Shown here: positions 7,613-19,905 of the stretch, piece by piece
How positions within the stretch are numbered: position 1 is the first letter of the stretch
Layout of the letters: each line of letters begins with the position of its first letter
Assembly (NCBI RefSeq): GCF_900187885.1
Contig: NZ_FYEK01000003.1
Location: 315,977-379,976, forward strand
DNA length: 64,000 nucleotides
Direction of reading: 5' to 3'
DNA from: Thermoflexus hugenholtzii JAD2
Lineage (GTDB): Bacteria > Chloroflexota > Anaerolineae > Thermoflexales > Thermoflexaceae
Notes under the pieces: generated by a model
Databases searched by the model: none
What the model saw: only the letters and a program-made list of their open reading frames with translations
What the model was told of the DNA's origin: nothing
Translations under genes and position numbers: made by a program

Positions 7613-8725
7613 ATGGAGATCTGGATCCTAGATCCTTGGGGGACAGAGGAGCGGCGGGCCTGGGCGGAGGGGTGGACTCGGCACAGCCGGCACCAAATCC
7701 GCCGGCTCGCCCTCCCCGCGGATCCGCTCCCACCCGACCCCGTCCGCGGGCGGGAGCGAGCCTTGGCCCTCGCCCGCCGCATCCGCCGCGCCCTCACCGG
7801 ATCCGCCACCCCGGATCCAACCCGCCTGCCCGCCGGCCGGCCCCACCTCCTCCTGGCCCTGGACGGCATGGATGTCGCCGTCTTCCGGGAAGCGACCGCC
7901 GATCTTCTGGAGGGGATCCCCGTCTGGATCTACTGGCACGACAGCGCCCTCGGGCGGCGGCGCTTATCGGATCCCAACCGCGCGGCCCTGGAGGCGTCGT
8001 CCGCCCGCGCCGCGGACCGCCTGCTCTTCAACGCCGAGGGGCACCGCCAGCGCTTCCTAACTGCTCTACAGGCCATCGACCCAGCTGCGGCCGCCATGGG
8101 GGCAGCCCGCTCGGCCACCCTCCCACCCGGCTTCTCCTTCCCTACCTCATCTCCCCGGCTAACGGCCCCCGAGGCCATGGGATGGTTCCTCTGGATCTTT
8201 CGAGGCGATCTGGAGGCCCTCGATCGCCTCCTGGACGCCATGGGGCTGGCGGCGGCGAAAGGGATCGACTTCCGCCTGATCGCGCTGAGTGAAGATCCGC
8301 CCCGAGCGGCCCGCGCCCTCGAGCGGCTCCCCCGCCCCCTGAAGGCCCGCCTGTTTGGGATCCTCCATCCGGAGGACCCTGAGGCCAGCCGCTGGGCCGC
8401 CCGAAGCCACGCCCTCCTGGAAACAGACCCGGAGACCCGCTCCCCCATCTGGACTATGACCTTCGCCGCCCGAGGGATCCCTCCCTGGGTTCCCGAGGGG
8501 TCCGTGCTGGCGGAGCTGTTGCCCGGATTGCCCACGTGGCGAAACGGAAGGGAACTGGCGGAGTGGATCGAGATGGAACGAGGGGGCGCCGCGTCGGCCT
8601 CCTCCCGCATCCCTACTCGAGGATTCACCTTTTGGCTGGAAGCCCTTCGGCCCTATGCGTGGCCTGCCCTCGCCGCCCGCTATGATGCGTCCATGGCCGG
8701 CGGAGAAGCGGAGGGCGCGCCTTGA
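7613..8725 (+). CDS. tRNA-queuosine mannosyltransferase-like protein (DUF3524-related)
   Basis: This 370-residue protein begins MEIWILDPWG and contains WAEGWTRHSRHQIRRLALP, LLLALDGMDVAVF, IYWHDSALG and AADRLLFNAEGHRQRFL. These match the order of motifs in DUF3524, the N-terminal domain of the GTDC1/queuosine-tRNA mannosyltransferase family, whose usual motifs include FHENQLxYP and AxxVxFNSxxNRxSF. The C-terminal half retains a GT-B-like FGILHPEDPEASRWAARSHALL but is weakly conserved. The ATG at 7613 follows GGGAAG; a longer open frame from 7508 has no support. It overlaps crtB tail-to-tail by 46 bases. Function is inferred and the substrate could differ. Confidence 0.6.
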   Translation: MEIWILDPWGTEERRAWAEGWTRHSRHQIRRLALPADPLPPDPVRGRERALALARRIRRALTGSATPDPTRLPAGRPHLLLALDGMDVAVFREATADLLEGIPVWIYWHDSALGRRRLSDPNRAALEASSARAADRLLFNAEGHRQRFLTALQAIDPAAAAMGAARSATLPPGFSFPTSSPRLTAPEAMGWFLWIFRGDLEALDRLLDAMGLAAAKGIDFRLIALSEDPPRAARALERLPRPLKARLFGILHPEDPEASRWAARSHALLETDPETRSPIWTMTFAARGIPPWVPEGSVLAELLPGLPTWRNGRELAEWIEMERGGAASASSRIPTRGFTFWLEALRPYAWPALAARYDASMAGGEAEGAP

Positions 8726-9666
8726 GCGCCCGGCCTGCGTTCCGCCCACCACGCGCGGAGGGCGATCCACAACCGGGCCACCGGGCCCAGGGCGGCGCGG
8801 CGGGTGAACACATCGTAGCCGTTGCGCTCGATCGCCCCGAGGATCCCCTGATACAGCTCGGCGGCGGCGCGGATGGCCACCCGCCCCTCCGGGGAGAGCC
8901 AGCGCAGGCCGGGGAGAGCGGCGGCGTAGAGGCGCCGCGCCCGCGTGATCTGGAAGCGCATGAAGGCCCGCCATCGGGCATCCACCCGCCCCTCCGCAAT
9001 CTGCTCCTCTGAGATCCCGAAGGCCCGCAGCTCCTCCCGGGGCAGATACAGCCGGCCCGCTCGCCAATCCTCCCCCACATCCCGCAGGATGTTCGTGAGC
9101 TGCAGGGCCACTCCCAGCCGGACGGCGTAAAGGAGGGCTGAGCGATCCGTGTAGCCGATGATGAACATGCTCATCAGCCCCACCGTCGAGGCCACCCCGT
9201 AACAGTAAGCCGCCAGCTCCGCAAAGGTCTCGTAGGGACGCAAGTCCAGATCCCGGGCAACCCCATCCAGAAACTGCTCCACATAGCCGCGGGGGATGCG
9301 GTAGCGTCTTCGGGCATCGGCCCAGGCTACCAGCACCGGCTCGTCCGCCGGAGGCTGAGGGGAGAGGGCAAGAGCCCGCCACCGCGCCAGGGCCACCGCA
9401 GGATCGGTCCGCGGTGCATCGACCAAATCATCTGTTACCCGACAGAAGGCATAAAGGGCCCGCACCGCCCGTCGCTTCTCCGCCGGCAACAGGGACGAGG
9501 CCAAGGCGAAAGACCGGCTGTAACGCCGGATGATCCCCTCGCAGACCGCATACGCCCGATCCACATCCCCCACCCTCGGAGAAGACTCCAGAGCCTCCGA
9601 GCGGGCCGCCTCATACGCCCACCCCACAAGAGGACGCTCCCACTCCGCCCAGGTCTCCTCCCGCAT
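8680..9666 (-). CDS. crtB: Phytoene synthase
   Basis: This 328-residue squalene/phytoene synthase family enzyme condenses two geranylgeranyl diphosphates to phytoene, the first committed carotenoid step. Both aspartate motifs are present: RVTDDLVDAP (binding the first Mg/diphosphate) and QLTNILRDVGEDWRAGRLYLP. YSRSFALASSLLPAEKRRAVRALYAFCR is also typical. The ATG at 9666 (MREETWAEW) is preferred because GAGGGAGGGG precedes it; an upstream in-frame ATG at 9717 overlaps the promoter. It is divergent from crtI and shares its control region. Confidence 0.95.
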   Translation of the reverse strand: MREETWAEWERPLVGWAYEAARSEALESSPRVGDVDRAYAVCEGIIRRYSRSFALASSLLPAEKRRAVRALYAFCRVTDDLVDAPRTDPAVALARWRALALSPQPPADEPVLVAWADARRRYRIPRGYVEQFLDGVARDLDLRPYETFAELAAYCYGVASTVGLMSMFIIGYTDRSALLYAVRLGVALQLTNILRDVGEDWRAGRLYLPREELRAFGISEEQIAEGRVDARWRAFMRFQITRARRLYAAALPGLRWLSPEGRVAIRAAAELYQGILGAIERNGYDVFTRRAALGPVARLWIALRAWWAERRPGAQGAPSASPPAMDAS

Positions 9667-9698: not shown

Positions 9699-9727
9699 AG
9701 GATAGCGCCTTGTCCATGTTTTGTCAA
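9699..9727 (-). promoter_or_regulatory. crtB promoter
   Basis: On the minus strand TTGACA (9727-9722), a 17-base spacer and TATCCT (9704-9699) lie about 30 bases upstream of the crtB start. The -35 hexamer overlaps the left arm of the inverted repeat at 9719-9754. Confidence 0.65.
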
Positions 9728-9754
9728 TATTTTGCCCACAAATCCTTGACAAAA
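9719..9754. promoter_or_regulatory. Candidate operator for the CarH/LitR-type repressor
   Basis: TTTTGTCA (9719-9726) and its exact inverse TGACAAAA (9747-9754), 20 bases apart, span both -35 elements of the divergent crtB and crtI promoters. The nearest regulator gene is the B12-dependent MerR-type repressor at 11437, so light-relieved repression of both promoters at once is the natural reading. Binding is inference. Confidence 0.5.
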
Positions 9755-9774
9755 TATGTGTGCCGTGGTAAGGT
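9746..9774 (+). promoter_or_regulatory. crtI operon promoter
   Basis: TTGACA (9746-9751), a 17-base spacer and TAAGGT (9769-9774; weak -10) precede crtI by about 110 bases. The good -35 and poor -10 would suit a regulated promoter. Confidence 0.5.
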
Positions 9775-9817
9775 GGAGTGGGGTGCACCGGGGGAGCGGA
9801 TCCCACTGGTTCCCGGG

Positions 9818-9847
9818 CGGGTCCCCCCGGTCAGCTGGGGGGACCCG
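9818..9847 (+). other. GC-rich hairpin in the crtI leader
   Basis: CGGGTCCCCCC (9818-9828) pairs perfectly with GGGGGGACCCG (9837-9847) around an 8-base loop. It lies between the crtI promoter and its ribosome binding site. There is no U-run, so it is not a standard terminator. A second possible stem (AGTGGG at 9777-9782 with CCCACT at 9802-9807) lies just upstream. Confidence 0.6.
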
Positions 9848-9882
9848 TCTCCGGGGAAATCCATTGGTCAAGGAGCGTGCCG

Positions 9883-11421
9883 ATGAGGACATTGGAGGTT
9901 GTAGTGATCGGAGCAGGGGTGGGGGGGATCGCCCTTGCTGCCCGGCTGGCGCGACAGGGGGCGCGCGTGACCGTGTTCGAGAAGAACGAAGGGCCGGGAG
10001 GCCGCTGCGACCGCTGGGTGTGGGAGGGCCATCGCTTCGACACCGGGCCCACGCTGCTGTTGATGCCCGAGATCTTCGCCGAAACTTACGCTGAGCTCGG
10101 CGAGCGGCTGGAAGACCATCTCGCGCTGCGGCGGGTGGATCCCACTTACCTCGTGCATTTCGAAGATGGGACCGTCCTGCAGATGACGGCGGATCTGCCG
10201 ACGATGCGGGATCAGCTGGAGGCCCTGGAGCCGGGCAGCTTCACGGCCTTCCTGCGCTATCTCGCGGATGGGCACCGCTTCTACGAAGTCGCCCGGCGGG
10301 AGTTCATCGGGCGCAATTTTCGCCACTGGTGGGAATACTTCAGCCCTGCTCGCCTGCCCCTCCTCCTGCAGCTGCGGGCCCTCACGGCCCACTATCAGGA
10401 TGTGGGGCGCTATTTCCGGGATCCGCGGCTGCGCGCCGCCTTCACCTTCCAGGACATGTATCTGGGCCTCAGCCCTTTTGAGGCCCCCGCCACCTACGCG
10501 CTGCTGGCAGCGTCGGAGATCACCCAGGGCGTCTGGTTCCCCAAGGGAGGGATGTATCGGGTCGTGGAGTCCCTGACGGCCATCGCCGAAGGCCACGGCG
10601 TTCGCTTCCACTACCGCACCCCGGTGGCCGCGATCGAAGTCGATGAGGACCGGGTGACAGGGGTTCGTCTGGAGGGCGGGGAGCGAGTGCGGGCGGACCT
10701 CGTGGTGGCCAACGCCGACCTTCCCTATGTGTATCGCCATTTGCTTCCTCCGGGGCCGGAGGCGGAGGCCATGGCCCGGCTTCGTTACACATGCTCGGCG
10801 ATCACCTTCTACTGGGGCCTTCGGAAGTCGCTGCCCGACCTGTGGGCTCACAACGTGTTCCTGGCCGGAGACTATCGCAAGAGCTTCGAACAGATCTTCC
10901 GGGACCTCCGGCTGCCGGAGGAGCCCAGTTTCTACGTGCACGCCCCGGCCCGCCTCGACCCAGACGCCGCCCCGCCTGGCGAGGACACCGTGATGGTTTT
11001 GGTGCCCACCGGACATCTGCCTGCGGATGGTCGTCCGCCAGAGGACCTGCAGGCCATGGTGGAGCGGGCCCGAGCGGCGGTGGAGGCGCGTCTGGCTCGG
11101 GCCCTGGGGTGGCCGCTGGGGCCCTTGCGAAAGTTCGAACGGGTGTATACCCCGCACACGTGGCAGACGCGTTACCATCTGGAGCGCGGGGCCGCCTTCG
11201 GCCTAAGCCACACGTTCGCCCAGGTGGGCTACCTGCGCCCGGCGAATCGTCATCCGCGTTACCGCAACCTCTACTTCGTGGGCGCCAGCACGCATCCGGG
11301 GACCGGGTTACCGATCGTGTTGCTGTCGGCTCGGTTAACGGCCCAGCGCATCGTCGAGGAATGTGCGGCGTGGTTTGCAGCACGCCGCTATCCGGTGCCG
11401 AGGGCGTCAGCGACCGCGTAA
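9883..11421 (+). CDS. crtI: Phytoene desaturase
   Basis: This 512-residue FAD enzyme of the CrtI family desaturates phytoene towards lycopene. The N-terminal dinucleotide-binding motif is VVIGAGVGGIALAARLARQG, followed by NEGPGGRCDRW and HRFDTGPTLLLMPEIF. The C-terminal CrtI signature is YFVGASTHPGTGLPIVLLSA. The ATG at 9883 follows AAGGAG; the frame is open upstream to 9778 but that stretch encodes the leader hairpin. It is the first gene of the plus-strand carotenoid/photolyase operon, 15 bases before the CarH-type regulator. Confidence 0.94.
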   Translation: MRTLEVVVIGAGVGGIALAARLARQGARVTVFEKNEGPGGRCDRWVWEGHRFDTGPTLLLMPEIFAETYAELGERLEDHLALRRVDPTYLVHFEDGTVLQMTADLPTMRDQLEALEPGSFTAFLRYLADGHRFYEVARREFIGRNFRHWWEYFSPARLPLLLQLRALTAHYQDVGRYFRDPRLRAAFTFQDMYLGLSPFEAPATYALLAASEITQGVWFPKGGMYRVVESLTAIAEGHGVRFHYRTPVAAIEVDEDRVTGVRLEGGERVRADLVVANADLPYVYRHLLPPGPEAEAMARLRYTCSAITFYWGLRKSLPDLWAHNVFLAGDYRKSFEQIFRDLRLPEEPSFYVHAPARLDPDAAPPGEDTVMVLVPTGHLPADGRPPEDLQAMVERARAAVEARLARALGWPLGPLRKFERVYTPHTWQTRYHLERGAAFGLSHTFAQVGYLRPANRHPRYRNLYFVGASTHPGTGLPIVLLSARLTAQRIVEECAAWFAARRYPVPRASATA

Positions 11422-11436: not shown

Positions 11437-12762
11437 ATGGAGGAGGCCGACCGGGCCCCCACCTACAACCTCCGCGCGGTGATACGCGAGACCGGGATCC
11501 GCCCGGACACGCTGCGGGCGTGGGAGCGCCGGTACGGGCTGCCGCGTCCCCACCGCACCCGTGGCGGGCATCGCCTTTACTCGCGTCGGGACATCGAGAT
11601 CATCCGCTGGTTGATGGCCCGAGAGGCGGAGGGGATGCGGATCGGCCAGGCCGTTGCCCTCTGGCGCGCCCTGGAGGCCGAAGGCCAGGACCCCCTTCGG
11701 GTTCGCCCAGTTCGCTCAACGCGGGACCAGCTTGCCGCCCTGCGGGCGGCCTGGATCGAGGCCTGCTTGCGCTTCGACGAGAAGGAGGCCGATCGGATCA
11801 TGGGCGAGGCCTTCGCCCTGTATCCGGTGGAGCAGGTGTGCCACGAGATCATCGAGGCAGGGCTCGGGGAGATCGGCGAGCGGTGGTATCGTGGGAAGGC
11901 CACCGCTCAACAGGAGCATTTCGCCTCCGCGCTGGCGATGCGCCGACTGAACGCCCTGATCGCGGCGGCTCCGCCTTCCGTGCGTCCCCAGCGGATCCTG
12001 ATCGGCTGCCCACCGGAGGAGTCCCATGCCCTGCCCGCTCTGCTCCTCACCCTCCTCCTCCGACGCCGAGGATGGGAGGTGATCTACCTGGGCCCCAATC
12101 TGCCTCTGCTGCGTTTGGAGGAGGCCCTGATCGCCATCCGCCCTCACCTCGTGATCATGCTGGCCCAGATGCTTCCGACCGCCGCCACCCTGGCCGACGC
12201 CGCTGAGATCGTCGCCCAAAAGGGGATCCCACTGGGCTACGGTGGGCGGATCTTCCAGCGACCGGGGCTGGGGGACGCCATCCCAGGGGCTTTCCTCGGC
12301 ACCACGTGGGAGGAGGCCGTAAGCCGAGCGGAGGCCCTCGTGGCCCTCGGGCGCCCCATCCCGCCGCTTGCGCCACTTCCCGAGGCCTTCCGCCGGGCCC
12401 TCCAGGCCTACCGTGCCGCCCGGCCCCAGCTGGAGCTGGAGATCTGGCAAGCATGCGGGACGATCCAAGCTTTGCTGGAGTCCCTGGATTTAGGACCGAT
12501 GACCCCTCTGCGGATCATGGAGGCCGCCCTACGGCTCGGGCGGCCGGAAGCGGTGGCCGAGGAATGGCGATGGGCGGCCGGCTTGCTGCGCCATCACGGC
12601 GGGTCGGTCTCCCTCCTGGCCGAGCTCACCCGTGCCTATGCCGGAGCCCTGCGCCGCCTCCTGAGCGGGGAACCCGCGGTCATCCGGCTGGCGGAAGTTT
12701 TGGAGGCCTGCTTGACCTCTCTGGAGGGATCGGAATGCGGTTCCGACACGCCTTCATCGTGA
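11437..12762 (+). CDS. carH: CarH/LitR-type B12-dependent photoreceptor transcriptional repressor
   Basis: This is a 441-residue regulator. Residues 8-75 are a MerR-type winged helix (IRPDTLRAWERRYGLPRPHR, GGHRLYSRRDIEIIRWL). A helical B12-cap region (about 100-170) contains W150, nine residues, then E160-H161, the Wx9EH signature of CarH photoreceptors. The Rossmann B12-binding domain has E195-x-H197, where H197 would be the lower cobalt ligand; the last residue of ExHxxG is P instead of G. In the known family, adenosylcobalamin drives tetramer binding to DNA in the dark and light releases it. The final 130 or so residues go beyond the usual CarH length and are of unknown role. It is probably autoregulated within the operon it controls. 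Confidence 0.88.
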   Translation: MEEADRAPTYNLRAVIRETGIRPDTLRAWERRYGLPRPHRTRGGHRLYSRRDIEIIRWLMAREAEGMRIGQAVALWRALEAEGQDPLRVRPVRSTRDQLAALRAAWIEACLRFDEKEADRIMGEAFALYPVEQVCHEIIEAGLGEIGERWYRGKATAQQEHFASALAMRRLNALIAAAPPSVRPQRILIGCPPEESHALPALLLTLLLRRRGWEVIYLGPNLPLLRLEEALIAIRPHLVIMLAQMLPTAATLADAAEIVAQKGIPLGYGGRIFQRPGLGDAIPGAFLGTTWEEAVSRAEALVALGRPIPPLAPLPEAFRRALQAYRAARPQLELEIWQACGTIQALLESLDLGPMTPLRIMEAALRLGRPEAVAEEWRWAAGLLRHHGGSVSLLAELTRAYAGALRRLLSGEPAVIRLAEVLEACLTSLEGSECGSDTPSS

Positions 12763-13181
12763 GCGCGCCCTTCGAACGGGTGGCGGCCTTCCACCGCGAT
12801 CCCATCGCCCTGGCCCGCCTGACGCCGCCTCCGCTGTCGATCCGCTGGATTCATCGCGAGCCGGTCGCCGAGGGAGCACGGGCCCGCTTCATCCTGCAGT
12901 GGGGCCCCGTCGCCATCCCATGGGAGGCGGTCCATCGGGAGGTCTCCGCAACAGGCTTCGTGGACGAGCAGGTGGCGGGACCGTTCCGAAGGTGGGTTCA
13001 CCGTCATCGCTTTCGGGAGATCGCCCCGGGGGTGACCGAGATCGTCGATGAGATCGAGGCGGCGCTGCCGCGGCATCCCCTCCGGGCGCTGGTGGCCCTG
13101 GCGATCTGGTTGGGGCTTCCCCTCCTCTTCGCCTACCGCGCCCGGGCTACCCGGCGCGCCCTTCAGACCGCCTCTCAATGA
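12735..13181 (+). CDS. SRPBCC-fold protein (START-like ligand-binding)
   Basis: This 148-residue protein starts MRFRHAFIVSAPFERVAAFH and continues with the alternating strands of a polyketide-cyclase/START-like fold (GPVAIPWEAVHREV, FVDEQVAGPFRRWVHRHRF, TEIVDEIEAALP). It ends in a hydrophobic helix (ALVALAIWLGLPLLFAYRAR). Such proteins bind small hydrophobic ligands. Its place between carH and a carotenoid desaturase suggests a role with carotenoids or their precursors, which is inference. It overlaps carH by 28 bases, with GGAGGGAT before its ATG. Confidence 0.7.
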   Translation: MRFRHAFIVSAPFERVAAFHRDPIALARLTPPPLSIRWIHREPVAEGARARFILQWGPVAIPWEAVHREVSATGFVDEQVAGPFRRWVHRHRFREIAPGVTEIVDEIEAALPRHPLRALVALAIWLGLPLLFAYRARATRRALQTASQ

Positions 13182-13193
13182 GGAGAAGATCCC

Positions 13194-14753
13194 ATGCGTG
13201 TCGTTGTGATCGGAGCGGGCATCGGCGGGCTGACGACGGCCGCCATCCTCGCCCACGACGGGCTAGAGGTGGAGGTGCTGGAGGCCCACACGGATCCGGG
13301 GGGGTGCGCAGCCACCTTCTCCTATCGAGGTTTTCGCTTCGACGCAGGGGCAACGCTGGCCGGCGGGTTCGCCCCGGGGATGCCCATGGCGATCCTGGGG
13401 GAACGGCTGGGGATCTCGTGGGGCATCCATCCGGAGGCCCTCGCCATGCAGGTTCACCTGCCCGATGGGACGACGATCTCCCGCTGGACGGATCGAGAGC
13501 GGTGGCGGATAGAACGGCGCGCGCACTTCGGCGCAGCGGGAGAGCCCTTTTGGGCGTGGCAGGAGCAGACCGCTCAAGCCCTTTGGGATCTCGCGCGAGA
13601 AGGGTTTCCCTGGCCCCCTCAGGACGCCGGTGAAGGATGGAGGCTCTTTCGGAGGGCAACCGCCTGGCTGCGGCGGCATCCGGGGATGTGGAGCTCCATC
13701 GTTCAGGATGCCTTCCGCCCGGTGGCGGCGCGGCTGCCTGAAGGGGAACGATTGCGCTTGTTCGTGGATGCCCAGTTGATGATCAGCGCCCAAGCCCCTG
13801 CAGCGCGGGCCAACGCTCTCTACGGAGCGGTCGCCCTGGATCTCCCACACACCGGTGTCGGGTCCATGCCTGGCGGCATCGGGGCGATCGCTGAGCGGCT
13901 GGTGGAGGCTGTGCGAAGGGCCGGGGGGCGGGTGCGCTTCGGCCAGGAGGTCCAACGGGTTCGGCGTTCCGGGCCGCGCGCCTTCCGCGTGGAGACAGGC
14001 GCCGGGGAAGGGATGGAGGCAGACGTCGTGATCTTCAACCTGCCGCCCAGCAACGCGGCCGCCCTGCTGGGTGAGGAGGCGCCGCCCATCCTGCGCAGGC
14101 TCCCGGAGGCCCCGCCCGACGGCTGGGGCGCCTTCATGGTCTACCTGGGGGTGCCGGAGGATCGGATCCCCCCGAACCTGCCGCTCCACCACCAGATCCT
14201 GACTGAAGAGGGGCTTGCGGAGGGAGGGATGATCTTCCTAACTCTCAGCCCATCGTGGGACCCCACTCGTGCTCCACCGGGGTTTCGATCCATTACCCTC
14301 AGCACCCACACGGCCCTGGCGCCCTGGTGGGAGGCGCTGGCCCGCAGCCCCCAAGCTTACGCAGCCCGGAAGGCCGAGCTGACCGCGCGCGTCCTCCGGG
14401 CAGCCCGCCGCCTCCTCCCCGATCTGCCCGCATCCGAGGCGGAGTGGCCGGAAGGATGGGTCCTCCGGACCGCCACGCCGGTCACCTTCCATCAGTTTAC
14501 CCGCCGTGCCCGGGGATGGGTGGCCGGTTTCCCCCAGACTTCCCTGTGGCGATATATCGGCCCTCGCCTGGCCCCTGGGTTGTGGCTCGTGGGAGACGCC
14601 ATCTTCCCCGGCCCCTCGATCCCCGCCGTGGCCCTGGGAGCCATGCGCGTGGCCCAGCAGGTGCAGCGCGAAGCGGCCCGGGCCCGGCGCTGGCTTCTCT
14701 GGGGCCGTCCGCTCCCTTCATCCTCTTCGCTTTCTGGAGGCTCGATCCGATGA
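13194..14753 (+). CDS. CrtI-family FAD carotenoid desaturase or isomerase (CrtD-like)
   Basis: This 519-residue FAD oxidoreductase has VVVIGAGIGGLTTAAILAHD, then DPGGCAATFSYRGFRFDAGATLAGGF and a C-terminal LWLVGDAIFPGPSIPAVALGAMR. The GCA-TF-YRGFRFDAGAT pattern is typical of CrtD-type C-3',4' desaturases and related carotene isomerases rather than phytoene desaturases, so it probably acts on a later carotenoid intermediate. It starts 12 bases after the SRPBCC gene and its stop overlaps the next start (ATGA). The exact reaction cannot be assigned from sequence alone. Confidence 0.75.
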   Translation: MRVVVIGAGIGGLTTAAILAHDGLEVEVLEAHTDPGGCAATFSYRGFRFDAGATLAGGFAPGMPMAILGERLGISWGIHPEALAMQVHLPDGTTISRWTDRERWRIERRAHFGAAGEPFWAWQEQTAQALWDLAREGFPWPPQDAGEGWRLFRRATAWLRRHPGMWSSIVQDAFRPVAARLPEGERLRLFVDAQLMISAQAPAARANALYGAVALDLPHTGVGSMPGGIGAIAERLVEAVRRAGGRVRFGQEVQRVRRSGPRAFRVETGAGEGMEADVVIFNLPPSNAAALLGEEAPPILRRLPEAPPDGWGAFMVYLGVPEDRIPPNLPLHHQILTEEGLAEGGMIFLTLSPSWDPTRAPPGFRSITLSTHTALAPWWEALARSPQAYAARKAELTARVLRAARRLLPDLPASEAEWPEGWVLRTATPVTFHQFTRRARGWVAGFPQTSLWRYIGPRLAPGLWLVGDAIFPGPSIPAVALGAMRVAQQVQREAARARRWLLWGRPLPSSSSLSGGSIR

Positions 14754-15328
14754 ACGCCCTGCGCATCCTGGAGGATTTCTACCGCGGGATCATGGCCAGC
14801 TATCCCCCGCAAGGGGAAGCCCTGCTCGCCCGGGTCCGGCCGGAGGCCTGGCGGCAGCTTGCCTTCCGCTACACACTATCGGTCGAGGCGATGACCCAGA
14901 TAAGCCACATCATCGAAGAGCAGGCGATGCAGCATCCCCGACCGGTCTGCTTCCATGTCTCGTTCCAGACCCTGTCCCGCTTCCTGCCCCAGCGCGAGCG
15001 TTACCGAGCGCTGGCCCCCCGGGTGGAGCGGCTCTGGCTATATGGGGCCTTCGATGTGGCGGACCCCGAGGAGGCCCAAGTGGGCCCGAACGTGATCCTC
15101 ATCGATACGGAAGGAACCCTTCTGTTGTCCTACTGGTTCGTCATCGCGTATGGGCCCGGGCTCTCGATGTGCCTGCTCGCCCGGGAGATCCCGGCGTTGG
15201 ACGGCCAGGGCCGATTTTACGAGGGATTCTATACTTTTGAGCCCACAGTGGCCTATGAAGTTCTCTCCATGCTCCACCTGGCCTTTCCGAAACAGGTGCC
15301 TGTGCCGACACCGGTGGAGGAATTGTGA
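14750..15328 (+). CDS. DICT-type sensory domain protein
   Basis: This 192-residue protein has a central CFHVSFQTLSRFLPQRERYR segment, then VERLWLYGAFDV and LLLSYWFVIAYGPGLSMCLLARE. This resembles the DICT domain, a putative sensor module often attached to light-sensing signalling proteins. The N-terminal 60 residues are helical. It has no output domain of its own. Its start overlaps the CrtD-like stop and its stop overlaps the photolyase start region, so it is tightly co-translated with light-response genes. A sensor or adaptor for light stress is inferred. Confidence 0.65.
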   Translation: MNALRILEDFYRGIMASYPPQGEALLARVRPEAWRQLAFRYTLSVEAMTQISHIIEEQAMQHPRPVCFHVSFQTLSRFLPQRERYRALAPRVERLWLYGAFDVADPEEAQVGPNVILIDTEGTLLLSYWFVIAYGPGLSMCLLAREIPALDGQGRFYEGFYTFEPTVAYEVLSMLHLAFPKQVPVPTPVEEL

Positions 15329-16746
15329 TGGCCGAGGTGGCCCTCTGGTGGATCCGGCGGGATCTGCGTCTCCACGACGCCCCGGCCCTGCACGCTGCCC
15401 TGAGGGCCGCTGCCGCAGTGGTTCCCGTCTTCATCCTCGATCCCACCCTGACCCGAGCCCCGGGAGCGACCATCCGGCGGCGATTCCTGATCGGCGGATT
15501 GCGGGCGCTGGACGCGGCCCTGCACGCCCGCGGGGGCTGCCTGGTGGTTCGGGAGGGATCGCCCGCGGAGGTCTTAGAGGCCCTGATGGCCGAAACCGGC
15601 GCCTCGGCGATCTTCGCGGAGCGGGATCTCACCCCTTACGCCCGGCGTCGGGATGCGTTCGTGGCCCGTTCGCTTCCCCTGCGCCTGGTGGGCCATCCGA
15701 CCATCCATCCTCCTGAGTCCTTGGTCCGCGCCGACGGGGGCGCCTATCGGGTGTTCGGGGCCTTCCGTCGCGTCTGGGAAGCACTCCCCCTTCCCGCGCC
15801 CCTGCCTCCGCCGGAGCGGTCCTTGGCCACACCCACCGGATTGTTCTCCCTCCTCCACGTCGAGGGATGGGAAACGAGGATGATCGCGCAAGAGGAGGAG
15901 TTCCCTCCGGGAGAGGCCGAGGCGCTGCGGCGGCTGCGGGCCTTCACGGAAGGGCCCGAGGCGCCGATCTACCGCTATGCCCGGGAGCGGGATCGATTGG
16001 ACCGCGAGGGGACGGCCCGGCTCTCCCCTTACTTCCGGTTCGGGATGCTCTCGCCGCGCACCGCTGCGGCGGCCGCCATTGCGGCCATGGCGAACGCCCC
16101 CGATGCGGAGGGCCAGCGGAGCGCTCAGGCATGGCTGAGGGAGCTGATCTGGCGAGACTTCTTTTACGTGCTGTTCGCCCACGAGCCGGCGCTGCGCCGG
16201 CGGAGCCTGTTTCCCTTCGGCGAACGCATCCCATGGCGGTCGGATCCCGAGGGCTTTGCGGCCTGGGCCGAGGGGCGCACTGGCTATCCCCTGGTGGACG
16301 CCGGGATGCGTCAGCTGCAGGCGACCGGATGGATGCCCAATCGCGTGCGGATGGTGGCGGCCGCGTTCCTCGCCAAGCATCTGCTCATCGACTGGCGATG
16401 GGGAGAACGGTGGTTCATGACCCACCTTCTCGACGGCGACCCGGCCGTCAACGGGGGGAACTGGCAGTGGGCCGCGGGGGTGGGGGTGGACACCGCGCCT
16501 TACGTGCGCATCTTCCAGCCCGCGGCCCAATCCCGACGCAGCGACCCGCACGGCGCCTACATCCGGCGCTGGGTGCCGGAGCTGGCGGACGTCCCGGACG
16601 AATACGTGCACGCCCCATGGGAAATGCCTCCTGAGATCCAGCGGGCCGCAGGCTGTCGCGTTGGAGTCGATTATCCAGCGCCCTGGGTGCCGGAAAGGGC
16701 AGCGGCGCAGGCGCGGGTGATCTTCCGGGAGGCGCGACGACGATGA
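15328..16746 (+). CDS. phrB: Deoxyribodipyrimidine photolyase
   Basis: This is a 472-residue cryptochrome/photolyase-family enzyme. The N-terminal antenna-binding domain begins VALWWIRRDLRLHDAPAL. The C-terminal FAD domain shows LIWRDFFYVLFAHEP, TGYPLVDAGMRQLQATGWM, NRVRMVAAAFLAKHLLIDWR and the signature GNWQWAAGVGVDTAPYVRIF. This is the class I CPD photolyase pattern: light-driven repair of cyclobutane pyrimidine dimers. The ATG at 15328 follows GGTGGAGG; a GTG three bases earlier is possible. Membership in the carotenoid operon suggests the same light-controlled expression. Confidence 0.94.
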   Translation: MAEVALWWIRRDLRLHDAPALHAALRAAAAVVPVFILDPTLTRAPGATIRRRFLIGGLRALDAALHARGGCLVVREGSPAEVLEALMAETGASAIFAERDLTPYARRRDAFVARSLPLRLVGHPTIHPPESLVRADGGAYRVFGAFRRVWEALPLPAPLPPPERSLATPTGLFSLLHVEGWETRMIAQEEEFPPGEAEALRRLRAFTEGPEAPIYRYARERDRLDREGTARLSPYFRFGMLSPRTAAAAAIAAMANAPDAEGQRSAQAWLRELIWRDFFYVLFAHEPALRRRSLFPFGERIPWRSDPEGFAAWAEGRTGYPLVDAGMRQLQATGWMPNRVRMVAAAFLAKHLLIDWRWGERWFMTHLLDGDPAVNGGNWQWAAGVGVDTAPYVRIFQPAAQSRRSDPHGAYIRRWVPELADVPDEYVHAPWEMPPEIQRAAGCRVGVDYPAPWVPERAAAQARVIFREARRR

Positions 16747-18053
16747 AACCAATGAAAGAGAAGACCGATGGCCACGCGCCGCCCATCCCCTCAGTGGAAA
16801 GCCGGCTGCGCGCCCTCGCCGTGCGACTGCGCGGCGGCACGTGGCTGGATGCTTTAGAGGCGCTGCGCGCAGGGGCCGGGGACGTGTTCCGCTTGGAGAT
16901 GCCGGGCTTCCGAGCCGTGGTGGCCGCCGGCCCCGCCTCCATCCGCGCGGCCCTGGTGGAAGCGGTCTCCTCCCTGCGCTCCCGGGTGGATCCGGACCCG
17001 GTGGTGCGCCTGTTCCGGACCGGGATATTGGTGATGGACGGTGCGGAGCACGCCGCTCTACGTCGGATCGCCGCGCCCTTCTTCCGGCCGGCGGCGCTGG
17101 AGCGCTTCGCCCCCACGATCGTCCGCGCCGCCGACCGACAGATCGAAGCCTGGGCGGACGGAGCGCATGTGGAGATCATCGAGGCGATGCGGACGCTGGC
17201 CCTGGAGGTCCTCCTTGAAGCCCTGTTTGGAATCCCCGGGCCGACGGAGGCGCCGCGGCTGCTCCCGCTGCTGCGGGCCGCCCAGGCGTATATCTCCCCG
17301 GGCCCCTGGCTCCTCCATCCCGCCCTCTCCCGACCCGGCCTGAAAGGGCCCCTTCAGGAGCTGGAACAGGTGCTCCGGGATCATATCCGTGAGCGCCGAG
17401 CATGCCCGATGGGGGGAACCCTCCTGGACGCCTGGATCGAGGCCTTCGGGGGCGATGAAGAGCGAGTGCGGGATCAAATGCTCACCATGCTGATCGCCGG
17501 TCACGACACGGTGGCCGCCTGGCTGGCGTGGACAATGATCCTCCTGGCCGCCCATCCGGAGGTTCAGGAGCGAGCCCGAGCAGCCGTGGACGCGCGGCTG
17601 GGCTGGGGAACGCCAAGCCCGGAGGCCCTGCGCGGCCTGGAGGAGCTGGAGGGGATCGGCTGGGAAGCCCTGCGCCTGTATCCGCCGATCCCCGTTCTCA
17701 ACCGGCGGGCGACGGCCTCCTGCACGCTGGAGGGATGGACGATCCCCGCCGGAGTTCGAGTGATGGTCTCGCTCTACACGCTCCATCGCCACCCGGGCCT
17801 GTGGGCGGAACCTCACGCCTTCCGCCCCGAGCGGTTCCGAGGGGAAGGGATGGGGCTGCGGTTTCTGCCTTTCGGGGCGGGGCCGCATACCTGCATCGGC
17901 GCACCGCTGGCGCGGCTGGAGTGGAAACTGGCCGTGGCGCGGATGCTCCAGCGGGCGGCCTTTGAGCCGGCGTTCTCCACCCCGCGGCCGCGGATGGGGG
18001 CCACGCTGGAGCCCGCGCCCGGCCTCCTCGTGCGGATCCGACGGAGGTGGTAA
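16743..18053 (+). CDS. Cytochrome P450, CYP175-like carotenoid hydroxylase
   Basis: This 436-residue soluble P450 has all the family landmarks: an I-helix AGHDT at about residue 250, the K-helix WEALRLYPPIP (ExxR), the FRPERF segment and the heme loop FGAGPHTCIGAPLA with the axial cysteine at residue 384. The position beside phytoene synthase, photolyase and lycopene cyclase genes matches Thermus, where CYP175A1 hydroxylates beta-carotene to zeaxanthin. The same reaction is the likeliest role here. A redox partner is not encoded nearby. The start overlaps the photolyase stop (ATGA). Confidence 0.85.
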   Translation: MKPMKEKTDGHAPPIPSVESRLRALAVRLRGGTWLDALEALRAGAGDVFRLEMPGFRAVVAAGPASIRAALVEAVSSLRSRVDPDPVVRLFRTGILVMDGAEHAALRRIAAPFFRPAALERFAPTIVRAADRQIEAWADGAHVEIIEAMRTLALEVLLEALFGIPGPTEAPRLLPLLRAAQAYISPGPWLLHPALSRPGLKGPLQELEQVLRDHIRERRACPMGGTLLDAWIEAFGGDEERVRDQMLTMLIAGHDTVAAWLAWTMILLAAHPEVQERARAAVDARLGWGTPSPEALRGLEELEGIGWEALRLYPPIPVLNRRATASCTLEGWTIPAGVRVMVSLYTLHRHPGLWAEPHAFRPERFRGEGMGLRFLPFGAGPHTCIGAPLARLEWKLAVARMLQRAAFEPAFSTPRPRMGATLEPAPGLLVRIRRRW

Positions 18054-19124
18054 GTGAGCGGGCGTTCCCTCCGCGATCTCCCGATCCCTGAGCTGGCGGC
18101 GGTCCTCCTCTCATGGTGGGCCTTCGCCCGGGCGAGCCGCCTGCCGCGACTGGCCCTTCCGCCTCCACAGGAACTTCTGCCCGCCCTCTCCATCATCGTG
18201 CCGGCGCGCAACGAGGCCCGGAACCTGCGCCGACTGCTGCCCTCCCTGTGCGGCCTGCGCTACCCGGGCCCCTTGGAGATCCTGGTGGTGGACGATGAGT
18301 CAGAGGACGAGACGGCAGAAGTGGCCGTGGCCTTTGAGGCGACCGTGCTCCGCGCAGGCCCACGCCCGCCGGGCTGGCTGGGGAAGCCCTTCGCCGCCCA
18401 CCGGGGCGCGGAGGCTGCATCCGGGGAATGGTTGCTTTTCACCGATGCCGACACCTGGCACGCTCCCGACAGCGCCGCGAGGGCCGTGGCCTGGGCGCTT
18501 CAGCATCAGGTGGATGCCCTGACCCTCTTCCCCGATCTGGAGACCGAACGCATCTGGGAGGCAGCCGCCCTCGCCGTGGCCTTCGCCGGGCTCTTCGCCG
18601 GCCTGCGCCGCTTCGACGGGCTGATCAACGGCCAGTATCTCCTGATCCCCCGCGCCGTCTACTTCGCCAGCGGAGGGTTCGCCGCGGTGCGGGACCGGAT
18701 GCTGGAGGATCTGGCTTTCGGGCAACGGCTGCGAGCCCTCGGCTATCGCATCGCCCTGGTGGACGGACGCGATGTCGTGCGGGTGCGAACGGATGGAGAT
18801 CTTCGGGCATGGATCCACCGGATGGGGCGCTGGGCCGCGGGGGTGATGGAAGCACAGGCCATGCGCCCGTGGGTCCCGGTGTTGCTGACCGCAGGGATGG
18901 CCTTCCCGCTGGGCGAGGTGAGGCGAGGGCGTCTGGGAGCACGCCTCCTCCGCTGGGCATTGGCCGGGCTGGGGGCCTATCCCTGGGCGCAACGATGGGG
19001 ATGGCCGGCCGCGGCCGGGCTGGCCCCGTTGGGAGCAGCCCTCCTCGCGGGGAGCGCCCTCTGGGGGCTGGCTCGCCGCTGGAGCGGGCATGGGATCCCG
19101 TGGAAAGGCCGAAGGGTTCGTTGA
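18054..19124 (+). CDS. GT2 glycosyltransferase, probable carotenoid glycosyltransferase
   Basis: This 356-residue protein has a GT-A catalytic domain with LSIIVPARNEARNLRRLLPS, VVDDESEDETAEVA, LLFTDADTWHAPD and MLEDLAFGQRLRALGYRIAL, followed by C-terminal hydrophobic helices and the ending IPWKGRRV. This layout is shared with CrtQ-type carotenoid glycosyltransferases. It starts with GTG directly after the P450 stop, behind GGAGGTGG. The expected role is to transfer a sugar onto the hydroxyl made by the P450, at the membrane. The sugar and acceptor are inferred from context. Confidence 0.75.
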   Translation: MSGRSLRDLPIPELAAVLLSWWAFARASRLPRLALPPPQELLPALSIIVPARNEARNLRRLLPSLCGLRYPGPLEILVVDDESEDETAEVAVAFEATVLRAGPRPPGWLGKPFAAHRGAEAASGEWLLFTDADTWHAPDSAARAVAWALQHQVDALTLFPDLETERIWEAAALAVAFAGLFAGLRRFDGLINGQYLLIPRAVYFASGGFAAVRDRMLEDLAFGQRLRALGYRIALVDGRDVVRVRTDGDLRAWIHRMGRWAAGVMEAQAMRPWVPVLLTAGMAFPLGEVRRGRLGARLLRWALAGLGAYPWAQRWGWPAAAGLAPLGAALLAGSALWGLARRWSGHGIPWKGRRVR

Positions 19125-19149
19125 AGTTCGAGGAATCGCGGAGACCACG

Positions 19150-19905
19150 ATGACCTACCTGGGATTTCTCGCTCTGTTTTTAGGGATCCCGATTCTCGTC
19201 CTGGGAGCCCTTGCGCGCCGGCGTCCGACAGAGCGGCGAGCATGGACGGCTATGGCGGCCCTTAGCCTCATCGCCCTCCTCTACACCACACCATGGGACA
19301 ATCACCTGGTGGCCATGGGGGTTTGGGGCTACGACCCGCAGCGGGTCCTGGGGATCACCCTGGGCTGGGTGCCGCTGGAGGAATATCTGTTCTTCGTGCT
19401 CCAGCCGCTCCTGGTAGGCCTGTGGGCGATGGCAGAAGGCCCCAAGCCGCCCCCGCCGGAAACGACAGGCGGGAAGGGCCGATGGGGTCTCCTCATCGCC
19501 CTGGCTGCCCTGGAGATCGGGGCCCTTGGAGTCTGGATCAGCGGCCTGCAGGAAGGGGCCTACCTCAGCCGGATCCTGGCGTGGGGGCTGCCGCCGCTGG
19601 CCCTCCAGGTGGCGGTGGGCGGGGACCGACTGTGGGCGGCGCGAGAGGTGCTAGCCCGCCGCTGGGCCGGACCCACCTTGTGGCTGTGGCTGGCCGATGG
19701 GATCGCGATCCGGGCCGGCATCTGGTTCATCCGGCCTGAATTCACCGTCGGCCTGGGACTCGCTGGGCTCCCCCTGGAGGAAATGGTCTTCTTCGCCCTG
19801 ACCAACCTCCTGGTGGCCAACGGCTGGACGCTGGCACTCGATCCTGTGGTGGAGCGGCGGATCCGCCAGGCGGAGTTCCGCCCTCTGCGCATTCCCTCGG
19901 ATTAG
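19150..19905 (+). CDS. crtYcd: Lycopene cyclase, fused CrtYc-CrtYd type
   Basis: This is a 251-residue membrane protein with two homologous halves. The first has PWDNHLVAMGVWGYD and GWVPLEEYLFFVLQP; the second has IWFIRPEFTVGLGLAGLPLEEMVFFALTNLL. The repeated PxEE-xxFF motif defines the heterodimeric CrtYc/CrtYd lycopene cyclases, here fused in one chain as in some actinobacteria, archaea and Thermus. It closes the ends of lycopene to beta rings, providing the substrate for the P450. The ATG at 19150 is 25 bases after the glycosyltransferase stop. Confidence 0.9.
   Translation: MTYLGFLALFLGIPILVLGALARRRPTERRAWTAMAALSLIALLYTTPWDNHLVAMGVWGYDPQRVLGITLGWVPLEEYLFFVLQPLLVGLWAMAEGPKPPPPETTGGKGRWGLLIALAALEIGALGVWISGLQEGAYLSRILAWGLPPLALQVAVGGDRLWAAREVLARRWAGPTLWLWLADGIAIRAGIWFIRPEFTVGLGLAGLPLEEMVFFALTNLLVANGWTLALDPVVERRIRQAEFRPLRIPSD

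Follow-up and report, generated by a model that had tools for sequence, protein, structure and literature searches.

The analysis points to a divergent pair of sigma-70-type promoters that would be governed by a single CarH-type operator, with dark repression of both the crtB and the crtI promoter. From the comparison of sequences, we put the probability of this reading at roughly 75%. The promoters, the repeat array and its conservation, the domain make-up of the regulator and the inventory of cofactor genes were all observed directly. The stretch of DNA that was analyzed, here called the window, is 64,000 nucleotides long and comes from a Thermoflexus genome (phylum Chloroflexota); among its named relatives, Thermoflexus sp. 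629H.11 (genome G006) is the closest.

In the window, crtB and crtI diverge from one short control region, and downstream of crtI comes a run of genes on the same strand, which overlap or are separated by short gaps:

8680-9666, minus strand: crtB, phytoene synthase (SQS_PSY; Pfam PF00494, E 1.6e-80)
9883-11421, plus strand: crtI, phytoene desaturase family (TIGR02734, E 4.3e-139, above cut-off)
11437-12762, plus strand: carH-like regulator gene (MerR domain at about residues 9-75, B12 domain at about 105-300, photoglobin-like domain at about 306-430)
12352-12759, plus strand: photoglobin-like C-terminal domain of the regulator (AlphaFold model, pLDDT 81, pTM 0.75)
12780-13181, plus strand: small protein, SRPBCC-like by eye, conserved in the cluster; no match in Pfam or NCBIfam
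13194-14753, plus strand: second CrtI/CrtD-like FAD desaturase (TIGR02733, E 1.8e-75, below cut-off)
14744-15328, plus strand: DICT sensory domain protein (PF10069, E 5.4e-10)
15325-16746, plus strand: DNA photolyase (PF03441, E 1.8e-82)
16743-18053, plus strand: cytochrome P450 (PF00067, E 1.8e-56)
18054-19124, plus strand: glycosyltransferase, HpnB/CruG-like
19090-19905, plus strand: CarR-type lycopene cyclase domain protein (TIGR03462, E 5.1e-40, above cut-off)

The original prediction had placed a B12 photoreceptor-type gene in the crtI operon, and the regulator gene indeed starts 15 bp past the crtI stop codon on the same strand. The divergent order of crtB and crtI-carH is kept in seven Thermoflexus loci, including the window, and also in G028 and G034; in G003, the genes from DICT onward sit on the crtB side instead. 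The DICT protein is a stand-alone protein that is kept across the genus within the carotenoid gene run, and DICT domains have been reported among proteins with light-responsive B12 domains (PMC11796333). Another genome of the same genus, the one-contig genome G004 (L073), contains only a crtB remnant of 55 residues with 80% identity (G004:C1:875734-875895), and no carH was found in it. This pattern would fit an apparent deletion of the whole cluster at once.

The control region between crtB and crtI contains the following elements:

9704-9699, minus strand: crtB -10 element, TATCCT, 17 bp from the -35 element
9727-9722, minus strand: crtB -35 element, TTGACA, doubling as the core of the central CarH-type repeat
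9746-9751, plus strand: crtI -35 element, TTGACA, itself a TnnACA motif on the plus strand
9769-9774, plus strand: crtI -10 element, TAAGGT, 17 bp from the -35 element
9733-9743, minus strand: CarH-type repeat 1, ATTTGTGGGCA, degenerate (TnnGCA)
9722-9732, minus strand: CarH-type repeat 2, AAATATTGACA, full TnnACA, present in 7 of 7 Thermoflexus loci, core identical with the crtB -35 element
9711-9721, minus strand: CarH-type repeat 3, AAACATGGACA, full TnnACA, with a full unit at offset +11 in 6 of 9 loci
9715-9758, no strand: imperfect inverted repeat with arms 9715-9734 and 9739-9758, 20 nt each, 80% complementary

The back-to-back TTGACA-N17 promoters that had been predicted for the two genes were thus found at 9699-9727 and 9746-9774. 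In all seven cluster-bearing Thermoflexus loci and in G028, the two -35 elements are found again together with plausible -10 elements, while the flanks diverge; for the crtB promoter of G005, the best-fitting spacer is 18. The 48 bp from 9711 to 9758 have a GC content of 33%, compared with 68% for the window. The longest crtB open reading frame would begin at an ATG at 9717 and overlap the promoter; this start was rejected, and the ATG at 9666 is likelier. In G006, an in-frame TAG directly precedes the equivalent of the latter ATG, and the whole promoter and candidate operator site is therefore non-coding.

The crtI leader (9781-9870) was noted as a separate feature. It starts with a conserved GGTGC(A) motif and contains a very stable hairpin with its core at 9818-9847. 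The hairpins of G002, G003, G005 and G007 have perfect or near-perfect stems of 14-16 bp and 4-nt loops, and their differing stem sequences suggest compensatory change. Neither the hairpin nor the window matched Rfam, and the genome holds a single instance of the promoter-plus-GGTGCA pattern.

CarH operators consist of head-to-tail 11-bp repeats of the form nnnnTnnACAn, and the array encloses a -35 or -10 promoter element (PMC9304148, PMC8156234). On the crtB strand, positions 9743-9711 hold the three repeats in perfect 11-bp register, with the cores TGGGCA-TTGACA-TGGACA. Two full units and one degenerate unit thus stand in tandem and overlap a promoter element; in G002 and G005, all three units are full. 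A blind scan requiring three 11-bp units was applied to 11-20 kb per carH locus, that is, to the first 20 kb of the window. It turned out that the scanned part of the window contained one array, which lay in the crtB-crtI gap, and that an array was found in the same gap in 7 of 7 Thermoflexus loci. G028 and G034, which are among the most distant loci with the divergent gap, fell below the three-unit threshold; each has two full units, which are on the crtB strand in G028 and on the crtI strand in G034.

It could be argued that AT-rich divergent promoters in a GC-rich genome happen to hold TnnACA-like motifs by chance. One unit per promoter is indeed automatic, because TTGACA is itself a TnnACA motif. 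However, extra units at exactly 11 bp recur in diverged loci and are nearly absent at other offsets. In nine loci, 12 full TnnACA units lay at an offset of +11 or -11 from one of the -35 elements, against 3 at all other offsets within 40 bp, counts that do not represent independent events since the loci are related. Shuffled sequences yielded about none (0.0-0.1 arrays expected per locus), and we regard a chance origin of the array as highly improbable. When the whole genome was searched with a relaxed consensus, the crtB-crtI site alone was matched. The idea of a wider CarH regulon in the same genome was rejected, as there was no second site with the relaxed consensus; a site with three perfect units was likewise not found in the genome.

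The two -35 elements are also embedded in the symmetric sequence TTTTGTCA-N20-TGACAAAA, as originally predicted. This sequence occurs once in the 64 kb, at 9719, and it had been proposed to be the operator; in that case, a dimer would sit symmetrically on the palindrome itself, in the manner of classical MerR proteins. The inverted repeat does exist, and the window holds no second copy of it. Five of the seven Thermoflexus loci retain the TTTT/AAAA flanks on both sides and the remaining two on one side, and inverted repeats have been described for Myxococcus CarA sites. However, most of the mirror symmetry is accounted for by the fact that both -35 elements are TTGACA anyway, and TtCarH and BmCarH bind direct repeats (PMC9304148, PMC8156234). 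Furthermore, the gap between the -35 hexamers is 18 bp in most loci, but 8 bp in G001, 19 bp in G028 and 30 bp in G006 and G034, whereas the 11-bp head-to-tail spacing is constant. Because the spacing varies from 8 to 30 bp in the relatives while the 11-bp repeats are kept, the palindrome was rejected as the recognition unit, and symmetric binding is very unlikely. The variable distances themselves follow a pattern. G006 contains 12 bp extra, which read as one more (fourth) TGTC unit, and G001 has one unit fewer; in these few cases, the promoters therefore seem to have moved apart or closer together in steps of roughly one repeat, or one turn of the helix.

With the head-to-tail array as the candidate operator, it has to be considered whether it acts on both promoters or only on crtB, the crtI promoter being constitutive or otherwise controlled. 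The crtB -35 element lies in the middle of the array (9711-9743), and the crtI -35 element, which begins at 9746, is outside it. On the other hand, a 33-bp array goes with a CarH footprint of about 34-38 bp, which would extend to the crtI -35 element or end right beside it, and the crtI strands of G001 and G034 bear a tandem TnnACA pair of their own. Control of crtB alone thus seems unlikely, and we favor one operator for both promoters. The earlier idea of one repressor site for both promoters is retained in the form of a CarH-type site that, judged by homology and conservation, overlaps or abuts both of them, and it is abandoned with respect to the palindrome.

Arrays of three 11-bp units were also seen in other Chloroflexota, 850 bp upstream of carH in L040, at -61 in L052 and at -88 in L057. 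These three arrays lie directly upstream of carH or of a gene that precedes carH. The presence of autoregulated CarH sites more widely in the phylum is suggested.

The regulator contains an N-terminal MerR-type DNA-binding domain (PF13411, E 2.1e-11) and was aligned with TtCarH (5c8d) with an E-value of 5.6e-27. The Wx9EH and ExH motifs that had been reported for the gene at 11437 were recovered as W-YRGKATAQQ-EH and E-S-H, and the equivalents of W131, E141, H142 and H177 are kept. The NCBIfam CarH equivalog NF052513 is the best-scoring NCBIfam model, but its score of 140.5 bits is below the cut-off of 400, and the protein is therefore called CarH-like and was not filed as a CarH equivalog. 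Two features of the regulator had been overlooked in the original prediction, namely, the photoglobin-like domain and the replacement of His132. In the alignment, Tyr stands at the His132 position of the window's regulator, as it does in most of the long-form homologues from Chloroflexota. His132 is the second axial ligand, a feature of the light state of TtCarH that is not common to all B12 photoreceptors (PMC10979010). In addition, the equivalents of Arg176 and Asp201, which form a dimer contact in TtCarH, are Ser and Asn. A PduO-type adenosyltransferase is present in the genome, so AdoCbl can be made; a CobA-type adenosyltransferase was not found. In the carH gene of G006 (L034:3987-5309), which accompanies the enlarged array, the Wx9EH motif reads AQHGH, with Gly substituted for Glu141; this may represent a drifting photoreceptor or an assembly error.

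The last ~140 residues of the regulator are also present in the long-form Chloroflexota homologues. On its own, this domain matched no Pfam family and had no significant sequence match in the PDB (E 0.5 for its sequence profile). In contrast, a profile of 22 long-form proteins matched the photocobilins 8j2w/8j2x with an E-value of about 6e-28 over profile positions 108-419. Because the full-length model is of low confidence in the Rossmann part (pLDDT <50 for 175-312), the C-terminal domain was modelled alone, and matches of the full-length model were used as support only. The best structural match of the isolated domain was photocobilin 8j2x, with a Z-score of 10.8, which helical models can reach by chance, and 3.3 Å over 113 residues; Foldseek E-values for the domain alone were weak (best 0.11). 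The next matches were almost only phycobiliproteins and smURFP. Since the domain is collinear with the photocobilins after the B12 domain and its invariant Trp, W379, aligns with Trp296 of SasPcob, it is likely to be a photoglobin, the bilin-binding globin type of photocobilins.

Whether a bilin would be bound is a different matter. The position of Asp270, the biliverdin ligand of SasPcob, is occupied by Thr in the window and by Ala, Ser or Glu in other Thermoflexus, in a loop where the alignment is uncertain. Heme oxygenase PF01126 was absent from nine Thermoflexus genomes and from fifteen other Chloroflexota with a CarH homologue, a search that covered this one family. Because Asp270 is missing and no PF01126 heme oxygenase was found, the case for a dual B12-bilin sensor is weakened, and the regulator is probably a bilin-free MerR-B12-photoglobin protein. 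A tentative and rather doubtful extension would be that the photoglobin-like domain without bilin serves as a structural lid or as a sensor for some other signal, and that the operator spacing evolves by whole 11-bp units.

The same features raise the question of whether the regulator binds the array but does not sense light, and instead reports the AdoCbl supply or another signal via the photoglobin-like domain. The replacement of His132 by Tyr and the loss of Arg176/Asp201 would fit this explanation, as would the lack of a detected heme oxygenase for a bilin chromophore and the loss of Glu141 in G006. The H132A variant of TtCarH mostly remains tetrameric after light; in that study, loss of His132 largely blocks dissociation, contrary to an earlier report (PMC10442372). 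However, SasPcob has no bis-His ligation in its light state, with a water-ligated cobalt, and yet is monomeric (PMC10979010). The equivalents of W131, H142 and H177 are kept, together with E141 in the window, and the photolyase in the same gene run fits a light response. We therefore see a small chance for a function other than light sensing and prefer a light-responsive repressor.

For the preferred reading, binding, oligomeric state, repression of both promoters and light release are inferred as follows. In the dark, the AdoCbl-bound repressor would occupy 9743-9711 and hide the crtB -35 element at the array center, and the edge of the array and footprint would crowd the crtI -35 element at 9746, about 2-3 bp beyond the array. 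Because the array covers one -35 element and reaches near the other, neither promoter would be used; repression of crtI would rely on the footprint edge, since the array stops 2 bp short of its -35 element. In the light, the Co-C bond would break and the repressor would disassemble, which would allow expression of crtB in one direction and of crtI, carH (with autorepression), the second desaturase, photolyase, P450, glycosyltransferase and lycopene cyclase in the other. Given the Tyr at the His132 position and the photoglobin-like domain, the light step would probably resemble that of photocobilins, with dissociation without bis-His ligation, rather than that of Thermus CarH. Further points that speak against the preferred reading are the degenerate first repeat, the lost Arg176-Asp201 contact, the absence of Glu141 in G006 and the NF052513 score below the cut-off.

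The system is related to three known ones. Like CarH/LitR of Thermus thermophilus (5c8d, 5c8e), it has a MerR domain, a four-helix bundle plus Rossmann B12 domain, Wx9EH and ExH, carotenoid targets and three tandem 11-bp repeats with the -35 element inside. Unlike the Thermus protein of ~290 aa, the Thermoflexus regulator has 441 aa with the extra photoglobin-like C-terminus and has Tyr for His132, Ser for Arg176 and Asn for Asp201, and its array would serve the crtB promoter as well as the divergent crtI promoter. A single CarH site made up of three 11-bp repeats, with a footprint of 34-38 bp, overlies two divergent carotenoid promoters in Sorangium cellulosum (PMC9304148). The single three-repeat site is a common feature, whereas the phylum and the gene pair differ, Thermoflexus having crtB opposite crtI-carH and a repressor with a photoglobin-like domain. 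The photocobilins SasPcob and AbDPcob (8j2w, 8j2x, 8j2y; PMC10979010) also have a B12 domain followed by a helical photoglobin domain, and SasPcob shares the invariant Trp (Trp296, equivalent to W379) and, in the absence of a bis-His light state, parallels the absence of His132 in Thermoflexus. In contrast, photocobilins are stand-alone or joined to a cyclase, whereas the Thermoflexus protein is fused to a MerR domain, has Thr for Asp270 and is encoded in a genome in which no heme oxygenase was found.

One CarH site at divergent promoters (PMC9304148) and B12-photoglobin proteins (PMC10979010) are thus already known, and database mining has listed fusions of B12 domains with HTH and with biliverdin-binding domains (PMC11796333). 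The unusual feature is the combination of MerR, B12 and photoglobin-like domains in a carotenoid repressor that apparently has neither the axial His nor a bilin. The predicted switch would extend B12-based light control of carotenoids to thermophilic Chloroflexota of the genus Thermoflexus, with a concrete candidate operator. A natural repressor that joins the CarH and photocobilin architectures, with no second axial histidine and apparently no bilin, gives direct access to the contribution of the photoglobin domain and to the manner in which such a repressor lets go of DNA in the light.
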